Source of the DNA: Branchiostoma floridae
Taxonomy: Eukaryota; Chordata; Leptocardii; Amphioxiformes; Branchiostomatidae
Length of the DNA stretch: 64,000 nt
Direction of reading: 5' to 3'
Assembly: GCF_000003815.2 (NCBI RefSeq)
Contig: NC_049980.1
Coordinates: 12,669,075 to 12,733,074 of the forward strand
The notes beneath the pieces were generated by a model that was given only the letters and a program-made list of their open reading frames with translations, searched no databases and had not been told where the DNA came from. Below are positions 15,379-60,138 of the stretch, piece by piece; the first letter of the stretch is position 1, and every line of letters begins with the position of its first letter. A program made the position numbers and the translations under genes.

Positions 15379-18300
15379 GTAAACAATTTGATTTTGAGCA
15401 TGATCTCTACGTCAGTGGTAGAAATGTATAACGTTACGTAGTGTCGCCGACACAACAACAACAAGTGACAAAGAACAGTATCAGGGAACACATGATTTTC
15501 TTTCATATAACGTTTTAGCAAGGACGTTACGTCCTTGGTTTTAGGGACTCCGTTGGTTATTTTTGTTATGAACTCAACTTAACTAAAACTCGAGAATTCG
15601 CATTTTGAAAGAAGTTGCTTTCTTTATCACAAAATGACTTCCAAATGAATATTTAATTCAAAAGTCTTTATTGCTTAGTTGTCTAGGTTAGGTTTTGCTG
15701 TCACTTTGTTATTGTCTTTTTACTGTCACTTTGTTATTTTCACACACAATATGTTTACACACATTGCCAAGTTTTCAAATAATATTCAATCTCTACAAGT
15801 ACAACTGGATAAAAACAGATTTACTTCCGGACTTTTCAGGTGACATCCATCACTCTTCAGCTATCATCACTAGAACTAGATGAATGTCACTGGAAATATC
15901 CGGAATTAAATCTCCACTAGAACAGTGATAGATGTCACTCGAAACGTCCAGAAGTAAATCTCTAATTTCATCCAGTTGTAGAGATGTTTAACCTTCATAA
16001 CGTATTGCCAAGTTTTGAACTTGAAGGCTCCTTAAGCAGGCTTATTGCTTCAGTTCCTATTGTATAACTACTACTTAGTAGTATATATTATTATTATTTG
16101 AGGGGAGGGGAGTGAATAGAAAATATGGATTCGGGGTGGTACATGAGTAAAAATTAAATAACGTTAATATTGATATTACAATTTACATATAGCTTCTAGA
16201 AGTAGAGAACGGTTCAGGGTTCTCCCCAGAATTTTTTAGTATAGTGGAGGGGATGGCATAAATTACCCGAACCAACGCGCTGCACTTTCATGGAAATAAG
16301 TTCATTTTGCAATGACAGAGGGTGTCAAATACTACAAGTATAATATATCATAGTGATTCCTTTGTTGTGAAGTGGCAAAACGACTATTGTTTTGGTCATC
16401 GCCCATTCAGAAGTTTTTTCGCAGACAAAAACATTGCCAACTGGAAGAGTGATGCCCCTTGGCACAAAAATCTGTGAATTTTCATTAAGCAAAACTAACC
16501 AAGAAAATAGGGAAGAAACACACTAAATTTCAAAAGTAGTGTAGTAGAGCTGGGCTAGGAGTATAGTGGAGGGCCTCCCTTATTCCATACTCTGGGGAGG
16601 ACTCTGCCGGTTACACCCAGAGTTCCCTGTGCTGAAGTGCAAGGAAACTCAGTTCACTCTCATTCTATTACAAAACTCTCACAGACTTTCAGCCATTGCA
16701 TTACAAAATTGTATTTGTAGGATTTTCTTGTGTGGTGATAGCATATACTTTGTATCACTCAGTTTTGACTGCAGGCTCTCTTTCTAAATCCAGTGGTAGA
16801 ATAATATGATATAATCTTTCCAAATGCCAGACCAAATCTCTCAGTCCCACAGTATACATGACTGTGCTGTTGGTTATAACTTTTTGTTACTGTCTATGAA
16901 GCCTGGCAGTACTGTTGTTCATTAGTTGTTGCCATACAAATGTACTGTGTGTGATTGTAAAGCATTTATTATAGATATTCCATGTAACGTTATATATACA
17001 TGTACTTCCACTTTTTTTGAAATTTGAACCTCCACTTTGTTTCTCAATTCTAAAATTAATTCAATTCTAAAATTTCATTTTCTTTTTGGGTTGAACTTGA
17101 ATAATCAATTGATAAGAGAATATGAAATAATTACGGACACACAAGGACACAAACAGACAGACACATGGAAAACAAAACATCCTTCCAGAGAGGAAAACTT
17201 GAGCCCTAAACCCATGGCAAAAAATAGACATTCAGCTCCTGGTTCAAGGCTAGAATATTTCAATACACAAACTGCCAGTGCTGCCTTCAGGGAAATCTGA
17301 CAAAGCTGGGGACGTGGAGGGAATATCACTGGGTAAAGCCTTATTGATTGTACTTGTGGGCCAGACAGGTTATTAACCTGTCGTAAGGTTTCCTTTGGAT
17401 CATGTGATTGAAGTTTGACGCTTGGGGAATTTGAAATTAGTATCATACTTCTAAGAAAATATGTAGTCTTGTCAAGTTTTTGATTAAGGACCATAGGTAA
17501 ATTACTTTGCTTCAAAACTCTTTGCAAGCAACTACATATATATGTGACATGTATGAGTGCTTATTTACAAGTCCTTTAATTATCAAACTGGTCTTTTCAT
17601 CTTTTGTAATGAGAGCCTTTTCTATGCTTGGAAAAGAACACATATTTTTATACATATTTAATGTCGCAGAAGAGATTGGGATCCAGGAGAATTCAGAAAT
17701 CTCCTAGGAGAGATTGAAATTCTACAAAAATGCTGAAGCCTGTGCTGTATTACTTGTTTGAAGCCATAGACTTTTTAGTAAAGTACTGTTATACACTACA
17801 TCTACATGTTAAAGTATCAGAAAAAAATGATAAAGACTTCTGTTGTATTAGTAGATTATTTTGTTTTACTTGATAGAAATTTGAAGTTAAGTATCTACTA
17901 CTAGTAAGGTACAGCTGGTGATTACATTTAAGTGTTAGAAAAAGGATAAATCCTTTGAAAATTTATTGTATTGTTTGAAACATTAAATTTGTTTGATTTG
18001 AGATTTAGCTTATAGTCATACTAGTAGACTAAAGTACTGTTGTACAGTGAATAACATACAATGCATGAAGTATTTTAAATTTAAAAAGAAATCAATTTTA
18101 GTCTCTCCTAGGGGAAATTGGGATTCCAATCTCTCCCAGGAGATTTCCGAATTCTCTTTGATTCCAATCTCCACTTTGACATATATCTTAAACTTAGTTA
18201 AAGTTACAGATTATGTAGAGAATAGTGAAGTGAAATTACCAAAGACTCTGAATTTAAAGACTAGAACTCTGAAGAAAATGGTTTATACCCAGTCTTCCAT

Positions 18301-21300
18301 GTATTATTTTCCCAGGGCACCAATGGAGTTTTGGAGAGTCCCACAGGAACGGGCAAGACCCTGTGCCTCCTCTGTGCTACCCTTGCCTGGCGTTCAGCAT
18401 ATGTGGCCAAAATGCAGTTTGAAGGACTGAAGCAACAATTTACAAAAGATGAGGATGGACAGTCTACATATGGGGAACTGCTGGCCAACCAGTTAGGAGG
18501 GGCAGCTGGCTGGGGAAACACTGAGCAAGCTGGTAGGAAAATTCATTTTCATCTTTGACATAATGCACATACCCTAGTGTAAATGCTTGGTTCAAATTCT
18601 CTTCACCTTAAGTCAGGAATCCTTAAAGAAATGGATGTTCTATTACTGTATATAGTCAAAGCCACATGTAGTAAGCTAGCACCCAACAAATGAATATGAT
18701 TCAACTAGAGAAAGGACCTGATTCAGATTTATTTGGTATCACAACTTCTGAACATTATAAATTTACATAAGACTTGTATGTCACATGACCTAGTTTTGTG
18801 TACACATGCCTGTACAATACTGTACATCTCTTTGTAGTATGAATTATAGTACAATGGGTTCATACATCATGCTCTTTAGATTAGACTACAAGCTTTGCCA
18901 GTACATGTAATTGCAAATTTACAATACTGTAAGTGCATTTAAGTTCGGGGGGATTTAATTTTGCGGTAGCAGGAAAAAGAACTTTTCACGGTGGTTTTAA
19001 GTTTGCGGTAGCGACATGCACTGTAGTTTCTTACTGCTATGGAATAATGTTCGCGGTTTATTTAAATTTGCGGTGAAGCAACCACCGCGAAAACCGTGAA
19101 CATTAATCCACCGCGAAAGTTTCTGCATTTACAGTACTATTCTGAACACTGTTCACATCTACCTAGCTTATAGTGGAATTTTCTTTTTCAAGAACATGGT
19201 AAGTATGCATCCTGAAAAACTGCAAGGCCTAGCTGTGTCAAACATTGAATGAATCCCTGCCATGGTGAGAAAATGATGTAGCCATTACCTGGCTTCTGAC
19301 CGCAGGATTCGCGGCGATATGTGCATAATCCCCTATCAATATTGCTGGTAAGGAGTGCAGTGCACTGTACATGGAGGTGATATATGGGAGTGTCTAGACC
19401 CTGGTCTATTTACAATGTTGGCCGCTGACCCAGCGTGCATGCTGTAATTTGGCAGTAACGTTAGGGATATGAATCACAAGTCAATAATGGCTCTACACAA
19501 CATATCTGGATACCCGAGATCAACTTTAATCAGCTGCGCATGGACCGAGGAAGATTGCTCCTCAAAGATTAGGGCAATTGTCTTGAAGGGTGCTATCTTT
19601 CTAGGTAGGAGGATAGATGTTGAAGTGGAGTGGAATTTTCAAATGTGTCCTTATCAGAAGTCTTCAAACATTTTAGCTGAGAGTCAAGATTTACACAGGA
19701 TATGAATCGTATGATATAATATGATGGATAGTAGATATATATCAGATACACACACTGTACACGCAGTGACAGGATCATTTTTTTTTCAACCTATTATTGG
19801 TATTAACAATCCGGATAGTGAGTGTGTGGGTGATTTCTGCTTGAGCAATGTCAGCTTAAATGTGCTGGGTGACTCAGTCATGTGTAAATGGCTATTGAAA
19901 GTTACCCAGCTACAATTTGGAAAAGCTGTTCAAATTTAGTGTTGAAGGCAATAATTCTAGTTGTTTTTCTTCACACTGCCTGCTTTCTGATTTCTACTCT
20001 AAGACTTTCATTTGAAATAGCCATTACTCATTTGAAGTAATCATTGCACATTTTCCTCTTGTCTTGTTTATACATGTAGCTGGTCCCTTTATGGAGATAC
20101 CAAAGATAATCTATGCCTCCCGCACCCACTCTCAACTGTCACAGGCAGTGGCTGAACTGAAGAATACTTCCTACAGGTGGGCATTATATCCATTGTTATA
20201 ATGTACCTAAATTTGGTACATGTAATACGAAAAAAGAGGGCAGTTATTTTTTTCATGCTTTTCAGAATCTATTCTTCCTTGCAAGTATACATGACACTGC
20301 CAAGACTGTGTTACATGTAAGTCTTGTATTTTCCTCAGCAACCTGAAAGTTTGCATTCTTGGGTCCAGAGAGCAACTGTGTATACATCCTGAGGTACAGG
20401 AACAGACTAACAACTCCACAAAGGTTAGTACGTATACTAGGAGAAGGAGCAAAACTTACATACATGTTATACAGTAAATGTTCAACATTTTGAAGTTCAA
20501 ATAATTTCAGGGTCAATCCATGAAGAAAAGCAGGTTTATGATAAGAGTTTTTGGTAAGTATCTCATGTTGTGCACTCTTTTGTTCTCTGCACCTAAATTC
20601 GTGGATTTAGTAGTCTAGCTGTAATATTGCTTTACTGCACTGTTCACAGTGAAGTTGCAGTCTCTAATTTTACAACAATTATTTTTTGTAAAAATGGCTT
20701 ATTTCAGACATTGAATACTGCATTTTAAAGATATCAAGTGGTATCTAACTAGTAAAACTGTTAATGAGCATTGTGAAATCATATAGAATGATCACATTCT
20801 TTACAGTCATAGTTGCATGCAAATGAGACATGATTATTATTGCACACACTGTACATGTACAACTTATCATTCACATGTTGAGTGCTGATCAGGCCTCCAA
20901 TACAAATGTAGACCTACTGGAATGAAGAGTGCAATGTGTCAAACGTTAGGTTGATTTATTGATCATGTAGTAACTTTTGATGACATTTTAAATTTTTTGC
21001 TGAAAAGTGATGTTTCCAAATAATGGTAAGGATTACAACATCATTTTGGAAAGAATGCAAAAATCAATTGATCATCACAATATTTTAAAGGCTAGCTCCA
21101 CAACTGGATACAATACTGCGATTATGTCCAGATGTTTCAGTGACATCTATCACTCTTTTGTCAGTGTCACTATAGACTAAACGGTTTGATGCTGAAATAG
21201 ATCATGCACTCTCAGTATAATCCAGTAGTATAGGGATTGAACATTCTCTTAAGTATTCAGCTAAATTTCTAACCTTCATTCAGAATCTTTTAATCTTAAA

Positions 21301-24300
21301 AGTTGTTCGTCCTTAGTTGGATTTTGGAGAATTTTGAAAATTTATGGCCACCTCAGTCTATTAAACATGAATGCGACACACGGTTTGGTCAACTGGTCAT
21401 GTAACAGGTCAGAAGAGCCATTTATATCGTCTCCACCTTATTCTGTTCCACATTGGTCTCCTTATCACTGTTACACAGGCACCATTCTGAAGGGAAATTT
21501 ATAGTTCCTGCACAATTCAGTTGGCAGTTAAAATGTCACTGGCAGCAGGAAATGACGAAATACGGGTACTGCATATACCAGTTGTTCAAAAAGGAGTAAA
21601 TCGAAATGTCATTTAACATGTAAAGTAGATTTATTTTTCAATCATTGTAGCATAATTTGATAACTACAGCCTTTATGCATTGAGTGACTGAATGTCCTCT
21701 TTTCTAGAAACTAAGATCCATTGTGTTTGTTACTATAAAGATTCATTAAGACATCTCACATACAGAACATCAAGGAAAAAAGGCAACACAAGAGATGTTG
21801 ACATAGAATAATGTTGTTCACTGAAGATTTGTTGACTGTTGCCCACCCACAAATTTTGCATTTAAATCTTCATGGTTTGAAGACTGTTTCCTTGGTGATT
21901 ATGACTGCCTCCAATAAATCCCTGTCATGCTTTGAATTCTAAAGCATGTTCCTGACTGTGAGAGGATCAACATTATGGATTTCATGGATGGATACGTGTG
22001 CTGTAAGCAATGGAACCATAATTGGATGAAAATTCATGGTGGATGTAGAATATTATGCTCTATGTACCTGCACATGTATACATTTAAACATTTCTATTAC
22101 TGTATGTGTAATAGAAATGTTTTGTGCTATTATTATGATTTTAATAGTGTGTGGTACATTATGCCATGACATTCAGTACATTATAACTTCAAAAATTTAC
22201 ATACTGTGGGCCATTTTTCTGTCTTGCAAATTAAACAGCACACTGTCTATGATACTGAACACACTATCCTTGGTACTACTGTACTTGCTACCCATTATAC
22301 AGAATGCGTTGTCTATGGCCGTGCTGAATGTATATTCAGTTCTTGGTCCTGAACACACAGTCTTTGGTACTCAACACACAGTCTATGTTCCTGAACACAC
22401 TGTCCTTGGTTCTGAACTCACAGTCTATGGTCATGAACCTACAGTCTATGGTCCTGAACACACAGTCTATGGTCCTGAACACACTGCCCTTGGTACTGAA
22501 GCCCTGAACACACAGTCTATGGTCCTGAACCAACAGTCTAAAGGTTATGAACACACAGTCTATGGTCCTGAACCTACAGTCTAAAGGTTATGAACACACA
22601 GTCTATGGCCCTGAACACACAGGCTATGGTCCTTAACACACTGTCCTTGGTACTGAACACACTGTCCTTGAAACTGAACACACTGTCCTTGGTACTAAAC
22701 ACACTGTCCTTGGTACTGAACACACAGTCTATGGTTCTGAACACACTGTCCTTGGTACTGAACACTCAGTCTATGGTTTTGAACACACTGTCCTTGGTAC
22801 TGAACACACAGTCTATGGTTCTGAACACACTGTCCTTGGTACTGAACACACAGTCTATGGTTCTGAACACACTGTCCTTGGTACTAAACACACTGTCCTT
22901 GGTACTGAACACACAGTCTATGGTTTTGAAAACACTGTCCATGGTACTGAACACACAGTCTATGGTTCTGAACACACTGTCCTTGGTACTGAACACACAG
23001 TCTATGGTTTTGAACACACTATCCTTGGTACTGAACACACAGTCTATGGTTCTGAACACACTGTCCTTGGTACTGAACACACAGTCTATGGTTCTGAACA
23101 CACTGTCCTTGGTACTGAACACACAGTCTATGGTTCTGAACACTCTGTCCTTGGTACTGAACACACAGTCTATGGTTTTGAACACACTGTCCTTGGTACT
23201 GAACACACAGTCTATGGCTTGAATACACAGGCTTTGGTACTTAACAAACTGTTCATGGTACTGAACACACAGTCTATGGTCCTGAAAACACTGTCCTTGG
23301 TACTGAACATACAGTCTATGGTCCTGAAAACACTGTCCTTGGTACTGAACACACAGTCTATGGTCCTGAACACACTGTCCTTGGTACTGTCTGAACACAC
23401 ACTGTCCTGGGTACTGTGCACACTGTCTTTGGTATTGAACACACTGTTCTCGGTAGTGAGGTATATTGTTTGCAACAAACATAATTTCCAACTTCATTTT
23501 CCTAGCTGTCCTTCTGTGTTGAGACAGAAAAGGGCAGCAAGGAAAACATGATAAATTTGCTTTCCCATAATCTGCTTGGAGATTAAAGCATACACTTACA
23601 CCCCTACTATACAGTACATACAACTTTTCTCTCTCCATTCCACAGGTTCACATGTGCAAGGCAAAGACGTCTTCTCGACTCTGTACCTTTTACAACAACT
23701 TGGATGGCAAGTTTGCTTAATTTTTTTGGCATTGCATTTTATTTAAGATTCTTAGACATTTTACTCTTCAGAGAGCAAACAGCATGAGCAGTTTATTTGA
23801 TGATAATGATTTCTATTTGCAATCACATGCCCAAAGTTTAATTGCAAAAAAAACACAATGTATACAATAATATAGAAAGGTAAATATCTAGTCAACATTA
23901 ACTGTTCTACATTGAATGATGTTTCTATATAAATACATGTACAGCATTGAGAGGGTGACTTCTTTTGTTGAGACAGTGTAATGAATAGTCACACGACTTC
24001 AATGATATGTGGGTTTTGCTATGTAAGTAGAAATGTATTTTTTTTTTTTAGGTTGTTTAGATGGTGAAAACTCGACAAGGCTGTGGTATACATTGTACAT
24101 ATCTATTTCAAAGAGCCTATCAGTATTTCTGTCAGTCTCATCATCAGAACATTGACAAATGACACATGATTACTTGGTTTGATTTTGGAAGAAATTGGGA
24201 TTTTTTTTTACTTTTATCTTGATGTCTTGACCTTCCTTCTCCAGAAAAGAAAAGTGAGAAAGAGTTCACAGAGGCTCCTCTGGACATTGAAGACCTGGTC

Positions 24301-27300: not shown

Positions 27301-30300
27301 CATGTAAAATGTTCATGCAACACAAAAATTGTGTGTCACATAATTGGAACAATTGGAGTTTTTGTCCCCAAACTAAGTGGTAAGTCCCAAACTTCTACAA
27401 GTTCTAGGATCAAACATAGCAACACTAAATGCCTTTGCCACATGTGTTATGTCACACGATTTTTTTGGGGTGGATACCAAATTCATAGTTACTGTGAATA
27501 TTGTCATGTTTTGCAGTCTTAGGTAAGGTTTGCGGTCTGTGGTACGTTTTGTTTCGGTAGTTTTCACAGTGTATCTTCAACGGAAAATGTTGACACTGCA
27601 AATGTACAATGTACATACATGTATGTAACAGACAAACTTGAAACACTGCTCAAAGGTCCTTTCTACACCATGAAATGATTTTTGTGCAAAAATACAATTT
27701 ATAATCTTCTAAAAGTCAGAGAATCTCCCAAGTGTTAAAGCAATCCCTACATTTCCCGTCACTAATAATGTTTCACAGGAGAAAATGTGTGAGGAGTCAT
27801 CCTCTTTCGACCTGACATCATATGACCTGGCATCCTGTGTGGAGGAGCTGGACAACCTCCACAAGTCTGTGGCTGAGATCGAAGTGCTGAACGAAAAGTT
27901 TCACACAGAATCCTCAACACGTGAGTTTTTAGAAAAGTGTACAAATCAGTTATTTCATAACTGACAAACATACACAATATACACACTTGACTCAAGAGTT
28001 CAGAAACAGTTTCCAAGTTTTTTTTGTTGAGTGTATTTGACTAAATGAAAATGTAAGGTCACTGCAGAGTTAAAGTTAATGTTTTAGATAAAAATGAAAT
28101 TTTTATTAGACACAATAATCTAAACATGTATCTCTCATTTTCCCACCCCCATATGAGTGATGTAGAACTCCATATAATTTGCATTGGAGAAGTACAGTAG
28201 ACTAGTTGTTAATGATCAAATATGATAATCATGCAAATTTACCTTACTTAACAAGCTGTCATCCTAATGACATTGTAATGTGAGACACATTGCTAAAAAT
28301 TTATATCATCACCAAAATTAAGGTAAAAATGATTATGACTTATTTGTGCATTTTGGTACAGTACAAAGATAGATGGTTTAATCTGTTCTTTTCACAGCAC
28401 CTGACTTCAGTGCTACTGAGCTGATCAAGTTGAAGAGTGAGTCAAATTGTATAGTCATAAGATACATATTAGACATTACTGAGTGAAATAACTGTAACAG
28501 TTGTAGCTAATGTTATGTATGAAAGGAATTGAAATTTTGATATTACTATTAAGCTTAATGTTGCTGTATTCATCCTTTGAAAAATGCAAAATTTAACTGG
28601 ATGGATGTATGGATGAATAGATGAATGGATGAATACATTGTAGATTGATGGATGGATTGATGGACAGACAGATGAGACATGACTGTCAATATTATTTTCC
28701 AACAATTTCAACTAAGATGGCTTAGTATGTTTGTATGACTTCTATTTTTTATTGAATGTTTCTTTCCTGGTAGGTATGCTGCTAGAATTGGAAAAGAAAA
28801 TTGACTCTCTTCCATTACCAGCCAATGGAACAGGGCTAACCAGACCAGGAAGGTAGAGCACCTCATGCTTCTGTCATTTATTTTGTTTATATACATGTAT
28901 GAAGTGACTTCTTGACTTTTTTAAAGGTAGTCAAAATTGGACCAAGAATACATTTGGTTTTAAGCCCTGCAATGTTATGGGTAAAAACCAGTTGTAACAG
29001 TAACTATACTTGGCATATTTGAATTATGTTGGGTATAACAGTCTATATTTACTTTACTTACCTCAAATATGACCATTAAGAGCAAGCTTTCGACTTAGCA
29101 ATTTTTGTGTGCTATGTAAAACTGAAATGTACCTAAAGTCTTAAGCTCATTAATTTGTTGCTCAACATTCACAAAATGGCTACCTTTTGTAGGCCTCTGA
29201 TAGATTGGGATTTTAGGCCAGTCTGCATATGAAGGTCAAGGTATTTTGAGCACTGATCATACAGAGTTGTTGTCATAATTTGTACATATTGTTCTTTATT
29301 TTTATTTAGTTTCATCTATGAGCTGTTTGCTGAACTCCAGATCACCTTTGACACAGCACCCATCTTGCTAGAAGTTCTTGACAAAGTAGTTGCCTATGCC
29401 ACCACCAACACCGGCACCAGTGTAGTGTTTGGAAACAAAGCTGCTGGAGTTTCCAAGTTGGGCGATGTGCTCAAGGTATGTTTAACAAGAGATGCAATGT
29501 TTAACTGCTAGTTGTACACATTTTGTTCAGCTATTGTTGACTTTCAATTTAAGTCAAGAATCACTTGAAGCACTAATGAAAGATATGAAATATGATGGTC
29601 TAATCAGAAATATTACAACATTGTGTTAATGTATTTTGTTTTGACAGATTGCTTTCAGTCATGATTCCTCAGCCTCTCAAAAGGGGAGCAATCTAGCCAA
29701 CCTGATGGCCAAGTATTACAAGGTAAGCAAACAAAACAGCAGATTTGTCATGAAGTGGAATCATTATATTCTGAATTCTAACATTATTCAACCTAATCAT
29801 TCCATAGAAGACTGAAGAGTCACACAGTGATAATAATTGATATAATGCTTAACATGAATGTACATTTGTAACATACTCGAGCTACTGCCTTTTTGTTGTC
29901 AAGTAGCGACAATTTGCAGAGAAGCGCAAAGTTTGCAAAAAAATAATGTTTGCAAATCTGCAATCTGCAACAGGTTTACGTAAAGACAGAGGAAGGTTTC
30001 CAGAAAAAGTCCAAGGCTAATGCTGACCCCTGGGCAACAACATCCTCCTCCAAGCCCAAGAAGCAGGGCCGCACACTGAGCTACTGGTGCTTCAGCCCAG
30101 GCCATGCCATGCAGGACCTGGCCAACCATGGTGTTCGCTCAATCATCCTCACCAGTGGAACCCTGTCTCCTCTAGAATCCTTCACAGCAGAGATGCACAT
30201 GTGAGTACCTAATGTGCTCTGACTTGTAAGCCATTGATGTACATTGTGACATTTATGGTACTGTCAATTGTGAAATTTTTGTGGTGGTTTTATGTTTGTG

Positions 30301-50298: not shown

Positions 50299-50346
50299 CT
50301 ACTGATCTGCGGGCATGGCCTCGAGTTTCTCCAGTAGCTTCTCTAC
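50299..50346 (-). CDS. HINT3: HINT3-like A, exon 5
   Basis: Encodes VEKLLEKLEAMPADQ and TAG after TTTTACAG; matches the C-terminal helix LIEKLRT of human HINT3. Confidence 0.85.
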   Translation of the reverse strand, partial: VEKLLEKLEAMPADQ

Positions 50347-53300
50347 CTGTAAAATGTGATCATATAAGACAACATTTACATCACAAGTACTACAACTAGA
50401 ACTTGTCAATCAAGTCTGAACTATTTGGATCAACCTCATATTATCAAAACATTCTTGATAGGGTTTGACTTCTGTATTACCTGAAAACCCTGTCATTTAC
50501 ATTGATCAGAAATCTGCAGTCATCTCATCTGATATATAAATCGAGCGATACGAAAGGAATAGGTATAAATGAGTTAAATCTTGGGCAAATGTTTTTTGAA
50601 AGGCTAAAGAACAAGTGTGCGTGCCATTGATAGCAGAACATCTCTAAAAAAAAACGTAAGGATAATTGTGGTCAAAAAGGTGTACAATTTCTCATTAAAC
50701 TAGAAAGGCCGACATTTGCTTGGGTGCAAATACAGCATATTTCAGCCATACCCATTCCCACGCAACATTGGACTGTTCCAAGTCACCCCTGCGCAAAAGT
50801 GCAATATTTAAACTGTAAGTTATCCCCAAAAGAGAACTAATATTGTGAATTGATTCCAGGTCAAAACAGAGCTTGCCCAATATGAACCGGGCCCATATGG
50901 AAGAATATATATAATCTTCCACAGGAGCGCCTATGCATAACTGATTGGCTTTTAGAATTGCGGCAGCTCCTATTTTTCCGAGAGTAAAAAAAAACGCATC
51001 TTCCATTCAGAAGATTTTCATCATGAAATTACATGACGCCATTCAACAATTTCCAATTCGACAACTAGGTCTAAGTACCGTCATAATCTCTTTGTGATGT
51101 GGGTACATTTATTATTGCATTGAACTTTTTTTTTAATCAAGTAGGGCATACGTTTTAATAATTGTCAAGCAGGTGCAAGTGTTGTGTAGTAGGAGTGTGT
51201 TGTTGTTGTTGTTTTTTTCAAGCTAAAAACTTCAATCTTCTTGTTTTGTATGAGCATAAACGGAGACGTCTCGAATGTTACAAGAATTTTACCACCCTGT
51301 CGCTTCATTTCTTTTCTGAAAAATCCCAGGACCAACAAGTTAACTTGATTTGGCTTTATCTATATATTTCATTTTCCTTCGAATTCTTTGTTAAGTATAT
51401 GCCCTGCATACCACTGTTAAAGTGTTTTACTTTGTATGCAATCAGCCATCGGACGTAATCTTGTCTGAATGTTGTAATTTCCTGCTCGTAGCGTGCGAGA
51501 CCTAGAGGATAGGAGTTTCTACCTTGTTCGGGGGTTTCTTTTCGGAGGTCAGTGGTGATACTCTGGTACTAAGAGTTTTTTATTGGGCTCAAACTCTGGC
51601 AGTTTAAAGTTACTTACAATTTGAATGTACAAAGATTACGTCAAAAAAGAACAACAACAACACTAACGTTAGAAGTACCTACATTTGTTTGGGAAAAAAT
51701 ACATGCATTCTCGCCACTGTCAAACTTACGTATCAAAACTAAACGCAAACTGTCCAATTTTCCCGCGTTTTCTGCCAAGTAACATTTTCTCGATTGTCTC
51801 AACTAACCCCCAAAGTCAAATCTGCCAAAAATGATTGATAGTGCCATGCGGAATGTTGGTAAATTCATCGACACAGACTTGTATTCTGACGTTCAATGCA
51901 CGCGTACCGTCCGCTACCGCTCAAATGACCCTGTCTGAGCTCCAAATCCTCGCAAACTACAATTTCAAACCGGGCACAGGGTAACATATAGCCACTGTAA
52001 GGCTGTAATATGCATCTGTTTGTGTATAAACGGGATTGCAAGGCCCCGCTTATGAATATTAACTAGCATTCGCCTTTCTCGTCGCTGATTGGCTGGCGCC
52101 CATAAAGTAATTAACTCTCGCTCTCCCCAGACCGATGGCACCTGGCACCTGTGGGCTCTGGGGTCACGGGAGTTCACGGGAGAAGGCCGAAAGAAAACCA
52201 ATTTCCTCTCAGAAAAGTGCAGAAATTAATAATTTGAAATTGGTTCATGCCAAAAATTTTACTTGGATCATTTTACCAACTATCTAATGCCTATCTACAC
52301 CAAATTTAAGGTCATTCCATTGTAATTCAATGGTACAGGGGGTCAAAATATACCGTTGTGGTCAAAACGTGACCTTTAAACTTCAATAAAATCATTTTAG
52401 AGGCAGATATGAAAAAAATGAGAAAAAAGCACCTCGGTATTGACCCACTCTACTCTTGTGCCAAATTTCAGGTCATTCGGTCCCGGAACGACGGAGATGA
52501 TTCGATTTGAAGATTTGACAGGAGAAAGAAAGAAAGAAAGAAAGAAAGAAACATTACGAATACAATATATTTCACCATACCATATATGGTATGGCTGAAA
52601 TATAATAAAAAAATACAGCCTTATAAATGATTGATTAAAGAGTTGCATTAATAGGTTGACAACAAAGTGTCAGAACAAAATGAAGCTTAAAGTAAAGACA
52701 GAACAAACGGACCTACCGTCATAAACCAGAAGGTGGTACTGTATATAGTACTGGACAGGAGGCTCATCTGGCTGGTCGGGGACAGGACATGCAGACACAG
52801 GTGGTCAACAGTGTTGAATGGAGGCCAGTGGAAGCCCAGTCTGGAACACAAGAACATGACACTAGATATTTACATGTAGAACAGCGACTATCTACACATT
52901 GATTGCACAGCCCATGCAAAAAAATCTATGATCAGCTTTATTATATGTACAAGTACATGTAGTGGTTGCAAGAAATTTCAGTCATTAGAGCCAGATCTGA
53001 CCTTTTGTCCTCCATGTTCCCTCCCTGCTCCTGTAGAACCTTGTTCCCAACCTCAGCCAGGGACTCAACTGGTGAAGAACAATAAAGAGATAACAATAAA
53101 GAGATAACCTGCTTCATGTGGCTGAGAGGTCTGAACTTTGACAATTTAAAACATGAGGAAAGTGGTGTGGGATAAAGAGATAAAGCATATTTTGGTTGCA
53201 CATAATCACAACTTCAAAGAACATAGCCTTTTACTAATTGATCTGTAAAAGGAGTATATGACATTGCACTTAAATGTAGTAGAGAAACATTTATTGTAGT

Positions 53301-55008
53301 GGTAGCACAGCCAGAATGTGAGAGGATGTCTCTGTCTATAGATCTTGCCTCCTGATCAAGTCCCACTAACTATTATATATATTCTTGCGTTTGGAGAATT
53401 TTGCAGGTACAAAACTTACACTTTACACAATAACTGCAAAATCCCTGACTAGAGGCTGAAGCTCACAGCGCATCATAATGATAAGCACCTTCGCTGGATC
53501 CTCAATTACCTCCATAAAACTTTTTGGTGTATTGTCGGTGTGTCTGTCCTTGTCGGTGCATTATATGCATAGTAACGCTAGTCACGTTAAAATAAGAGTG
53601 GTAGGAAGTAAAGGTCAGAGTGACAGGATAGGAGTAACACATCAACTTTGTGTGGCAACTGATGAACATTACAGGTCATGAAAATATCTACAGGGAGATA
53701 TTGGTTTCTGTCTGATTGTGTTTTTGTAGTTGTGTATTTTCTATGCATGCTTGTCACGTTTACCGTAGACTCACGGGAAGTGATAGATGGACATATGTAA
53801 TGTTGATCTAACCCTTATTTGCATAATTCATGAATAACAATTAAACCACACATACGAGAAACTTTAGATACTTCATTGAGGTATGAGATATAGGGACACT
53901 TTTAGTCTCGGGAACCCACCTAATGGAATGTCTTTATTGGTCAGTGTTGAAGGGTTTCCAACGTGCATCTTGGGGACGACCAGATAGTGATGGGGAGCGC
54001 CAGGCCGCTGGTCGCGGAAGGACACAAATTTCTCATCCTGAAGAGAGATAAGGATTGTAGTTACTCACACAAGTGCAATTCCAAATTTGCCAAAACTGGG
54101 GAAAGGCCAACGACCTTGCACTCGCAAATTATCCCCTTGCTAGTCTCAGCCGACCCCCAGTGAGGATGAAAATATTTGATAGCAGTAATTTTCCAAATGA
54201 GGTGAATGCTTGGAGTTTGCCAGATGAATTTCCTGGTCAGGGAGAGATAACCCCCGCCCACATTACCCTTCCCAGCCCCAGCTAACTTATTTGGCTGTTA
54301 TTCGCCTTATTTGGTCATGACAAATATGTACCTTTTTCAGCCCCTATAGGAGCCTCAGACCGATAGAGATCGAATTACAGCCATGTACATGTTCACGTTC
54401 AAAGCAACGTCACGTCATCTGTCTGAAATGAACGGCGTTGCGCTATGAAAATACGCCTGATCGGGAATTAATGTTAATTTAAGAACATTAGGCATCATGA
54501 TAACGATTAATTTCCTCTGCCCTTTTGTTGTTGGTCCACATTGAAATGAAAACATGACAGCCAAGGTCAGGAAACATATTCCCCATCATTTGTTAATACT
54601 GAACCATAGTGACGTATGTTATATGATAGCCATATCGCTATTCATCTTCAAAACACGTGCCTAATTAATGACCAGGTTTTACAGCGGTTTGAGATGGCTT
54701 ATCAAAAAAGCTGGGGGTTTTCTGGCATTCCGTGTCGGCTACTGATACCAGAAATCCGTGAAATACACCATGAAGGTTCCAGAATATAAGCTGCAATCAT
54801 ATGACATAGTCATGCCATCGCACATAGTCCGTTCATGCCCCTACCGGAAATATTATATCGTCATAAGCACCACTTCGGGAAATGTCCTAGGCAGCTCGCT
54901 CTTCCATCAAACGTTACGGTATTAGAATAAGATGTCACAAACCTCATACAGGATAGTTGTCATCGGTTCCTCTCCACGGGCGATGTTGCAAAATATGCAC
55001 CCCGCCAT
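50299..55008 (-). CDS. HINT3: HINT3-like HIT protein, catalytic His replaced by Cys (5 exons, 140 aa)
   Basis: HINT3 enzymes are HIT-fold hydrolases of nucleoside phosphoramidates and acyl-adenylates. Exons on minus: 55008-54943, 54037-53920, 53068-53002, 52840-52717, 50346-50299; 423 nt, all GT-AG and in phase. It begins MAGCIFCNIARGEEP (CxxC as in HINT3), has PHHYLVVPKMHVGN, MGFH-like [10 protein letters not shown], and ends VEKLLEKLEAMPADQ. The HIT motif, normally His-x-His-x-His, reads H97-L-C99-L-H101-V, so the residue that takes the nucleotide covalently is cysteine (codon TGT). The following SSTIYST also departs from the family's SRLVYR. Frame and splice sites are intact, so it looks expressed but may be inactive or altered. 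Tandem partner of the gene at 57722-60138. Confidence 0.9.
50347..52716. other. HINT3-like A intron 4
   Basis: Contains a GC-richer, CpG-containing patch at about 51740-52200 with two ATTGG boxes, possibly an internal promoter, and a (GAAA)n run at 52526-52551. No conserved protein seen. Confidence 0.45.
52526..52551. repeat. (GAAA)n microsatellite
   Basis: About six perfect tandem AAAG units. Confidence 0.95.
52717..52840 (-). CDS. HINT3: HINT3-like A, exon 4 (altered HIT motif)
   Basis: Encodes [20 protein letters not shown] onward to FWFMT. Acceptor TGTTCCAG, donor ACG|GTAGGT. Contains the His-to-Cys change. Confidence 0.93.
53002..53068 (-). CDS. HINT3: HINT3-like A, exon 3
   Basis: Encodes [20 protein letters not shown]. 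65 of 67 bases match exon 3 of the downstream paralog. Confidence 0.93.
53069..53919. other. HINT3-like A intron 2 (and intron 1 at 54038-54942)
   Basis: No recognised gene or repeat in either intron. Confidence 0.5.
53920..54037 (-). CDS. HINT3: HINT3-like A, exon 2
   Basis: Begins DEKFVSFRDQRPGAPHHYLV; acceptor CTCTTCAG, donor G|GTGGGT. Confidence 0.93.
54943..55008 (-). CDS. HINT3: HINT3-like A, exon 1
   Basis: Encodes MAGCIFCNIARGEEPMTTIL then YE; donor GAG|GTTTGT. The ATG context is GTCATGG. Confidence 0.92.
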
Positions 55009-57721: not shown

Positions 57722-57835
57722 CTATGACTGCTCTCCTTCAGCTTTAGTCTCAGACTGTTGCTGGGATGTGGAGGAAGGTGGTGAGGGCTGCTGATCTCCA
57801 GGCACGGCCTGCAGTCTCTCTAGTAGCTTGTCTAT
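57722..57835 (-). CDS. HINT3: HINT3-like B, exon 5
   Basis: Encodes [15 protein letters not shown], then a polar [14 protein letters not shown] tail and TAG. Confidence 0.9.
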   Translation of the reverse strand: MDKLLERLQAVPGDQQPSPPSSTSQQQSETKAEGEQS

Positions 57836-60138
57836 CTGTAAACAAGATGATTACATGTAATGAACATCTTAACCTGATTCATATTGTTAATTGGTTGGTG
57901 TCATGTTCTGTTGGGACATCCTGACTTAGTGGTGTTACCACTGCTTTACTTTAGATTTGTTTGTGTTGAGTTTACAATTTCTTCTGTTAGTTTAATCAAT
58001 CTTTGAAAGGACTTGATTTGGGGCTTCTGATGGGGAAAGGATGTTTTTGTGATTAAAATAATTTTATGGTACAATAGAGATACATTGAAAATGCATATTT
58101 TCTGTGTTATAATTTCTGCCTTTACCTTAACTGGCTGTAAGAATAAAACCATCACCAAGATTTCAAGATTCACTGTTTGCTGTTGACAAGGGTTGACTCC
58201 ATGGCAAAACTGAAACATATATGTACAGAACTGACATACCGTTACAAACCAGAAGGCAGGGCGGTACACCAGTCTTGAGAGAAAGCCCATCTGACTGTCT
58301 GGAGACAACACATGCAGGTGGAGGTGGTCAATGCTGTTGAAGGGAGGCCAGTGAAAGCCCAGTCTAGATAGGTACACAAGGAGTTAACATCATTCAAGAT
58401 GTCCTTAATAAGATACAAACAAATGGATGAAAACAACAAGTTAGGAATACAATGAAAGTTCACTAGTACCACTTCATTTTTAGTGCAAATTCAAGATTTG
58501 AGCTAAAGATAATGATGTCAAAATAATGTTTCAGCATCATTGTTTTTTGTATCATATCCACTGTATACATGCACAAATTGAAATACTAGCACAAGACAGC
58601 CAAATCTGACCTCTTATCCTCCATGTTCCCTCCCTGCTCCTGTAGAACCTTGTTCCCAACCTCAGCCAGGGACTCAACTGGAGTTGAACAATAGTAAAAC
58701 AGTAAATTAGAAACTCATGGCATAATCACTTCTGTGAATTAAGGTACTCGTATTGGTTTTGGACTGTCTTTGTTAACTTGTATATGTGAGCTGCTTCACC
58801 AAAACCTGCTATCTGACCAAATATCCATCGAATAGTGATGATGTTTACTTACTTTAAAGAGTTATTGTATATCATTTTGAAAAAATCAAACTCGATAGGC
58901 TAATTACTAGATTTGACACTAAGAATTACATTTTTCACAAATTTATCAAACTCAACGGTTCTTTGTAGCTCGAATGTAGCTTTGTGCACCCACCTAAGGG
59001 TATATCTTTATTAGTTAGTGTAGCTGGGTTCCCCATGTGTTCCTTGGGGATGATCAGGTAATGGTGTGCAGCTGCAGGGCTTCGGTCTCGGAATGCCACA
59101 AATCTCTCATCCTGAAAAGTGAAGAAGAGTTAGCCTGGCTGACAGACTGTTTCCAGGGCCTACACAAGCCAGCTCCTTGGCTCTGGGGCCAACATACCCC
59201 AGGGAATTTTCCCACTCTGACAGGACAGTACGTTAGGGTCAAATTTCCGAACCGGGCCCGGTCAAGGTATATGTGAAGCGTTTTTCTGTCATTTGTATAA
59301 TACATTGTACTTTTCATTCCTGCAAACAGCCCATTGAGGCCCTGATTTGGAACTGTGACCCTATAGCACCTTAAATTTTCCTTGGTTGCATTTTGGTCCG
59401 AGAGCCAAGGACCCGGCCTGTGTAGGCCCTGGAAACAGCCTGGCATCCAGGTTAAGAAGGGTCGGCATGTCATAGGGTCTGTGGAAGCAATCTTTTTCTA
59501 TAAGATCTAAAAGTAAGGTTGCTTCTTTCATCTTTTCTTTGTTTTATCTTGTTAAAGCCTTAGCCTATTGGCCAGGCGGGGTTTGTTGTATGAATGCTTA
59601 TTCGTATAAGCCTTCTCACATTATTTAGGATGCATGTGCGGCGACAGGAATTCTAGGTAATATGTCAAACGGTAATGCACACATAAAGTAAACAAGACCC
59701 GTCTGGACGTTGTTATAATGCAAATCGAAACAATGGTCAAGACAAGGACTGTTTACTTTTTGTGTGCCTAATAATAATACCCTTTGACATATTACCTAGA
59801 ATTCCTGTCGCCGAACATGGGTCCTTACTAATGTGAGAAGGCTTAAACTTGAATTGAGGCAACTGTCACAGTTGAAAATCCCGGAAACCGTACCATAAAA
59901 TTTCAATAACATACGACATGACACAGTATTTATGGGTAACGCCCCCCTCCCCCTTCAATCAGAGGTCAGTCGACAAAATAATATATCGTCATATGCAGTG
60001 TGCAAGTAACATCGAGTACATGTTTTACGCTATTGCTGATATGGGATGCTCTATATTGTCATGATGTACCTCATGAAGCAGCGTTGTCTTGGGCTCTTCT
60101 CCACGGGCAATGGTGCAAAAGATGCACCGTCTGGCCAT
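57722..60138 (-). CDS. HINT3: HINT3-like HIT protein, intact (5 exons, 163 aa)
   Basis: Exons on minus: 60138-60070, 59111-58994, 58677-58611, 58363-58240, 57835-57722; 492 nt, all GT-AG, with the same phases as the upstream paralog. Begins [20 protein letters not shown], then [24 protein letters not shown] and LGFHWPPFN. The HIT motif is complete: H98-L-H100-L-H102-V, with H100 the expected nucleophile, followed by [19 protein letters not shown] as in HINT3. The C-terminus adds about 25 residues rich in Gln, Ser and Pro after [15 protein letters not shown]; human HINT3 (182 aa) has its extra length at the N-terminus instead. Likely a working phosphoramidase; cellular location cannot be read from the sequence. 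Confidence 0.95.
58240..58363 (-). CDS. HINT3: HINT3-like B, exon 4 (HIT motif)
   Basis: Encodes [20 protein letters not shown] onward; donor ACG|GTATGT. Confidence 0.96.
58611..58677 (-). CDS. HINT3: HINT3-like B, exon 3
   Basis: Encodes [20 protein letters not shown]; differs from paralog A at two synonymous sites only. Confidence 0.95.
58994..59111 (-). CDS. HINT3: HINT3-like B, exon 2
   Basis: Begins [20 protein letters not shown]; acceptor CTTTTCAG, donor G|GTGGGT. Confidence 0.95.
59131..59457. repeat. Foldback element 1 (HINT3-like B intron 1)
   Basis: Arms of about 60 bp share CTGTTTCCAGGGCCTACACA and CCTTGGCTCT in inverted orientation. Flanks AAGAAGAG and AAGAAGGG may be an imperfect target duplication. 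Confidence 0.75.
59609..59843. repeat. Foldback element 2 (HINT3-like B intron 1)
   Basis: Long arms (about 90 bp) share AGCCTTCTCACATTA and GACAGGAATTCTAGGTAATA in inverted orientation, with a centre of under 60 bp. Confidence 0.8.
60070..60138 (-). CDS. HINT3: HINT3-like B, exon 1
   Basis: Encodes [20 protein letters not shown] then LHE; donor GAG|GTACAT. ATG context ACAATGG-like (ACATGG). Confidence 0.94.

Follow-up and report, generated by a model that had tools for sequence, protein, structure and literature searches.

In one of two tandem HINT3-like genes of the lancelet Branchiostoma floridae, the codon at the position of the catalytic histidine of the HIT motif specifies a cysteine, in a gene that otherwise appears whole. 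This gene (A) and its sister (B), which keeps the histidine, lie in a window of 64,000 nucleotides (C2:12669075-12733074, from an assembly of 513431437 bases in 431 contigs), the whole stretch of DNA that was analysed. The reading that we favour, with a probability of about 0.5, is that A would encode a nucleotide-binding pseudoenzyme. It is the best fit because the nucleophile is lost, the nucleotide-binding half and the outer histidines of the triad are kept, and the pairwise dN/dS is low.

Both genes run on the minus strand and have five exons each, whose bounds were set by hand from similarity and splice signals (Table 1). Read exon by exon, A is complete and encodes a HINT3-like protein of 140 amino acids; the product of B has 163, and the coding end of B lies 2.7 kb upstream of the start codon of A. 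A GT donor and an AG acceptor are present in all eight introns of the pair (four of them in A), there is no internal stop in the frame of either gene, and none of the pseudogene signs that we looked for (stops, frameshifts, broken splice sites) was found in A.

Table 1. Coding exons and active-site codons of genes A and B (positions within the window), and other HIT genes read in the assembly (by contig).
Feature	Position	Strand	Remark
Gene A exon 1	54943..55008	-	Start codon, CIFC motif
Gene A exon 2	53920..54037	-	HHYLVVPKMH, nucleotide-binding half
Gene A exon 3	53002..53068	-	97% base identity to exon 3 of B; probable gene conversion
Gene A exon 4	52717..52840	-	HLCLHV at 52786-52803
TGT codon, Cys99 of A, catalytic-His position	52795..52797	-	
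Gene A exon 5	50299..50346	-	Stop included
Gene B exon 1	60070..60138	-	
Gene B exon 2	58994..59111	-	
Gene B exon 3	58611..58677	-	
Gene B exon 4	58240..58363	-	HLHLHV at 58309-58326, central His codon CAC at 58318-58320
Gene B exon 5	57722..57835	-	22-residue tail absent from A, then stop
Two tandem HINT1-like genes	C3		Central His kept
Further HINT-like gene	C19		Central His kept
Aprataxin-like gene	C12		Central His kept
DcpS-like gene	C8		Central His kept

Against the Pfam models DcpS_C (PF11969; cut-off 24 bits) and HIT (PF01230; cut-off 21.5 bits), protein A scored 103.5 and 39.9 bits, respectively. The scores of protein B (114.1 and 43.0 bits) were likewise over both cut-offs, and the similarity of the two proteins to both models was full-length. 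Since its bit scores are well above the cut-offs, the HIT identity of A is not a matter of chance. The label HINT3 is our assumption, by presumed likeness to the human protein, as no HINT3 was among the solved structures listed. Descent of A and B from a HINT3-like gene by tandem duplication is part of what we consider the best explanation of these sequences.

The stretch at 52717-52840 on the minus strand, singled out in the initial annotation as holding a HLCLHV motif with Cys for the middle His, is exactly exon 4 of A, and the motif was confirmed there. The corresponding motif of B is HLHLHV; both outer histidines are kept in A. The H-x-H-x-H triad with a nucleophilic central His is present in B and absent from A, which has H-L-C-L-H instead. 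Alignment with human HINT1 chains of known structure places Cys99 of A on residue 112, and likewise the central His of B. A passage of PMC12375108 describes His112 of HINT1 as an active-site nucleophilic histidine, and for the three human HINT proteins a passage of PMC6648240 writes the triad as HI(L)HL(I)HVL(I). A shows one mark of a pseudoenzyme, in that a residue needed for catalysis is gone from a gene that is intact in other respects; its open frame and sound splice sites had also been recognized correctly in the initial annotation. The count there of two base changes from CAC to TGT was in error: the codons of B (CAC) and A (TGT) differ at three bases, and two replacement steps, via Arg or Tyr, suffice only from an ancestral CAT. 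The substitution does not stand by itself in exon 4, where 13 of 41 residues differ between A and B; A is also without the Asp that directly follows the triad in B and without two Arg further along. In this stretch, human HINT3 is presumably closer to B than to A, which we take as a lead.

The evidence for the Cys codon comes from a single assembly, and the codon might be an assembly error or a rare allele, or might be bypassed by another exon 4. We find this scarcely credible, given that three bases differ within one codon, in an exon with so many other residue differences. A six-frame motif scan of the window listed nine sites and no alternative exon 4 with His; the seven sites besides A and B (four on the plus strand, three on the minus) were all without HINT3 context. 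We also searched the whole 513-Mb assembly with PF01230, PF11969 and protein B, and scored the best candidates. Among the matches listed (18 for PF11969, 11 for protein B), HINT3-like exons, exon 4 included, occurred only at A and B; there was no third HINT3-like copy among them, nor a second allele of A on another contig of this assembly.

The central His is kept in all five other HIT genes that were read, the names of which were assigned by motif. Together with B that makes six of seven with this residue, A being the sole exception, in a count of the HIT genes read that does not take in the weaker hits of PF11969 (C205, C7 and two on C11) or a weak protein-B match at C12:10576551. No FHIT, GalT or CWF19 gene was identified among the HIT matches read.

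A and B have 75% of their residues in common. Over 140 aligned codons, dN/dS between them was 0.140/0.851 (NG86), 0.151/0.738 (YN00) or 0.145/0.679 (LWL85). The base identity of 73-80% in the other exons is far below that of exon 3, the peptide of which is identical in A and B. When the exons were joined, the longest identical run measured 65 bases (61 in exon 3 and 4 at the end of exon 2), a length reached in 0 of 20000 shuffles of all sites; the third-position run was reached in 22 of 20000. Because the likeness is in excess and takes in some of the flanking intron, spanning 96 bp at 94% (52989-53084 against 58598-58693), it points to a probable recent gene conversion of exon 3, selection on this exon being a possible alternative. 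The active-site exon 4, to judge from its divergence, was spared by conversion.

Constraint on A was assessed by a crude simulation at codon level (kappa 2, 400 runs per setting, constraint 0.05 outside the neutral phases), in which the divergence was taken from 37 fourfold sites, B was taken as the ancestor and exon 3 was left out. The value to be matched was the 35 amino-acid differences observed between A and B in 117 codons. With A neutral for the whole branch the simulated mean was 71.6 differences, and with A neutral for three quarters of it 61.7; the probability of a simulated number as low as the observed one was 0.000 in both cases. Neutrality over half of the branch gave a mean of 49.4 and P = 0.003. 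By comparison, P was 0.16 with neutrality over the last 35% and 0.68 over the last 25%, the chance of no stop mutation being 0.128 and 0.265, respectively. The fit was equally good with dN/dS held at 0.15-0.2 along both branches. When exon 4 was taken by itself, a neutral phase of three quarters of the branch was rejected (P = 0.003), and one of half the branch, with P = 0.14, was not. As neutrality was rejected for at least half of the branch and not for about its last third, the model indicates that A has been constrained for most of its history and leaves room for drift in about the final third.

These results bear on the possibility that A is a duplicate recently fallen out of use, an early and still unbroken pseudogene in which the Cys would be one tolerated change. 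The 13 residue differences in the 41 codons of the active-site exon are consistent with such a history, as are the outcomes simulated for neutrality over the last 35% or 25% of the branch and the appreciable chances of meeting no stop in that time. The open frame, the eight intact splice sites of A and the rejection of neutrality over half of the branch or more (P at most 0.003) argue against it, and we regard it as somewhat unlikely, though a serious contender. The earlier description of A as unlike a decaying pseudogene agrees with the intact gene and with the rejection of prolonged neutrality, but was too strong with respect to the last third or so of the branch, for which neutrality was not rejected.

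As a nucleotide-binding pseudoenzyme, A would differ from its sister as follows. B, in which the catalytic triad is kept, is presumably an active hydrolase. In A the nucleophilic His has given way to Cys99 and several neighbouring positions of exon 4 have changed too, but the half that binds nucleotides and the outer two histidines were retained, in a gene that is still intact. Once the nucleophile is gone, no covalent nucleotidyl-enzyme intermediate of the usual kind can form. A would then hold AMP or adenylated ligands without turnover and act by binding; we infer the loss of hydrolysis, the retention of binding and any biological role of A from the sequence.

Laboratory mutants in which the same catalytic residue is replaced bind without hydrolysing. 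In HINT1, H112N is stated to raise the affinity for AMP 150-fold, from 59 µM to 385 nM (in a passage of PMC12375108 that cites earlier work). The H96N mutant of FHIT is described, in passages of PMC5745650 and PMC4074825, as binding without hydrolysis and as near wild type in tumour suppression. According to a section of PMC6648240, HINT1 H112N still promotes p53-mediated apoptosis, its isopeptidase and adenylate hydrolase activities being lost and its SUMO binding partly lost. Unlike A, these mutants carry Asn rather than Cys, in an active site that is otherwise unchanged. The gain in affinity of H112N may accordingly not carry over to a protein with Cys at this position, and the other exon-4 changes in A could weaken binding.

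A pseudoenzyme, a binding protein and an enzyme with different chemistry had all been proposed in the initial annotation; the first two fit best, and the third found no positive support. In such an enzyme Cys99 would act as the nucleophile, or Cys and His would bind a metal, and the two kept histidines that flank the Cys are in keeping with either arrangement. Nevertheless, the neighbours have changed too (the Asp after the triad and the two Arg further on), and the titles and abstract starts of the literature searched showed no member of the family that works by Cys chemistry. Cys, moreover, fills the position in 2 of 60 domains of the archaeal clade described below, where most of the other fillers are unreactive. 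We consider an active Cys enzyme very doubtful.

By full-length Pfam similarity, A and B are both like other members of the HINT3-like family (DcpS_C and HIT), and B has a complete triad. A departs from that family in the Cys at the nucleophile site, in its further exon-4 changes and in the lack of a C-terminal tail of the B type. A HINT duplicate from which the triad has gone naturally is already known in HINTW, an avian, W-linked protein (as described in part of PMC12026566), which resembles A as a HINT duplicate with catalysis lost, presumably so in A. In HINTW, however, which comes from HINT1/HINTZ, the whole motif is gone; A is a copy of HINT3 type in which one residue of the motif was lost. 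The literature searched, outside which most subscription journals lay, showed no HINT3 copy with Cys as its nucleophile residue: no natural Cys HIT protein was found in titles and abstract starts, and no item combined HINT3 with amphioxus.

HIT proteins without the central His are found in archaea as well. A narrow scan for the Cys pattern in prokaryote genome contigs (84,980 species) gave 29 stretches, one of which (L022, from an archaeon MAG) was a HIT protein by eye; this is a lower bound with no denominator, as the pattern misses the usual archaeal form, which has Ala instead of Val. Pfam confirmed L022, the other 28 stretches were judged by eye, and the automatic signature flag marked none of the 29. 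The genome of L022 has four HIT matches, and two of the other three keep the central His. PF01230 matched each of 60 genomes from the phylum (that of L022 included), often as neighbouring pairs. From 46 of them we examined the triads of 93 distinct HIT domains, 33 with the central His and 60 without, a proportion that is biased by the choice of regions and not representative of the phylum. The 30 best-scoring PF01230 loci all have the central His. A further 40 regions were picked because they held long frames or tandem pairs; of their 61 domains, L022 included, 60 are without it. At least one such domain was present in 39 genomes.

The His-less archaeal proteins are about 170-270 amino acids long (L022/L061 and L092-L131; for example L095, L104, L107 and L119). 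The position of the nucleophile is filled by Met (27 of the 60 domains), Ser (9), Ile (8), Leu (7), Ala (4), Val (2), Cys (2) or Gly (1), and of the outer histidines, 58 domains have the first and 49 the third. A maximum-likelihood tree places all 60 together beyond a branch supported at 100/98, recovered in 99% of 200 bootstraps; to call them a clade assumes that the root lies among the His proteins. Within the 60, a group of 21 (99/99) and a weak group of 31 (91/58), with 8 domains outside both, match broadly the two tandem genes, and in one genome both domains occupy a single 361-aa frame, as a fusion. The archaeal pair, two paralogues that mostly stand in tandem, is possibly a dedicated HIT pseudoenzyme heterodimer. 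In the literature searched, nothing brought the histidine triad together with archaeal pseudoenzymes or with DPANN.

This group indicates that HIT proteins can endure over long times without the nucleophile; since Cys is just one of many fillers there, loss of catalysis is favoured over Cys chemistry. The archaeal proteins resemble A in being natural, without the nucleophile and with the outer histidines mostly kept; they differ in forming a whole clade, in having mostly Met at the position, in their tandem or fused pairs and in their separate origin. That the change in A was a separate event follows from the His still present in its sister B. In viral contigs, 190 stretches matched the pattern and no relative was found among them; a tblastn search of phages returned 16 records, with the best places all below 60% identity and in unannotated human-faecal contigs.

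The archaeal pairs, tandem and in one genome fused, also lend some plausibility to the idea that A, itself without catalysis, pairs with B in a heterodimer and tunes or blocks it. A proposal of this kind exists for HINTW of birds, with HINTZ as its partner. The role of HINTW is itself disputed, however, to judge from the title of a 2009 paper. A and B adjoin each other, and their overall likeness and identical exon-3 peptide would suit a joint dimer; HIT proteins such as HINT1 are dimers, according to a part of PMC6648240. We regard this role for A as quite unlikely.

PF01230 matched all 14 control genomes, and HIT proteins are very widespread nucleotide hydrolases. For FHIT and HINT1, passages in PMC5745650, PMC4074825 and PMC6648240 describe some biological effects as independent of hydrolysis. 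A natural nucleophile-less paralogue beside an intact sister would separate a binding role from catalysis without engineering, and the archaeal clade suggests that such proteins can be stable solutions rather than debris. A wider and tentative proposal, on balance unlikely, is that loss of the central His is a recurrent route from HIT hydrolases to nucleotide readers, taken by the lancelet HINT3 copy and by the archaeal tandem or fused pairs; A would then be a natural, AMP-binding counterpart of H112N and a cellular reader of AMP or AMP-modified proteins.

Adjoining A, the window holds a probable RTEL1-like helicase gene on the plus strand (about 18265-49480, a guessed extent). An open frame at 29947-30201 on that strand matches the Pfam model ARCH_RTEL1 (E = 7.5e-11), and a frame at 18265-18555, inside the guessed extent, has no Pfam match. 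A minisatellite at 22344-23444, with a unit of 21/42 bases and about 25 copies of 42, is not a gene and leaves long open frames on both strands.
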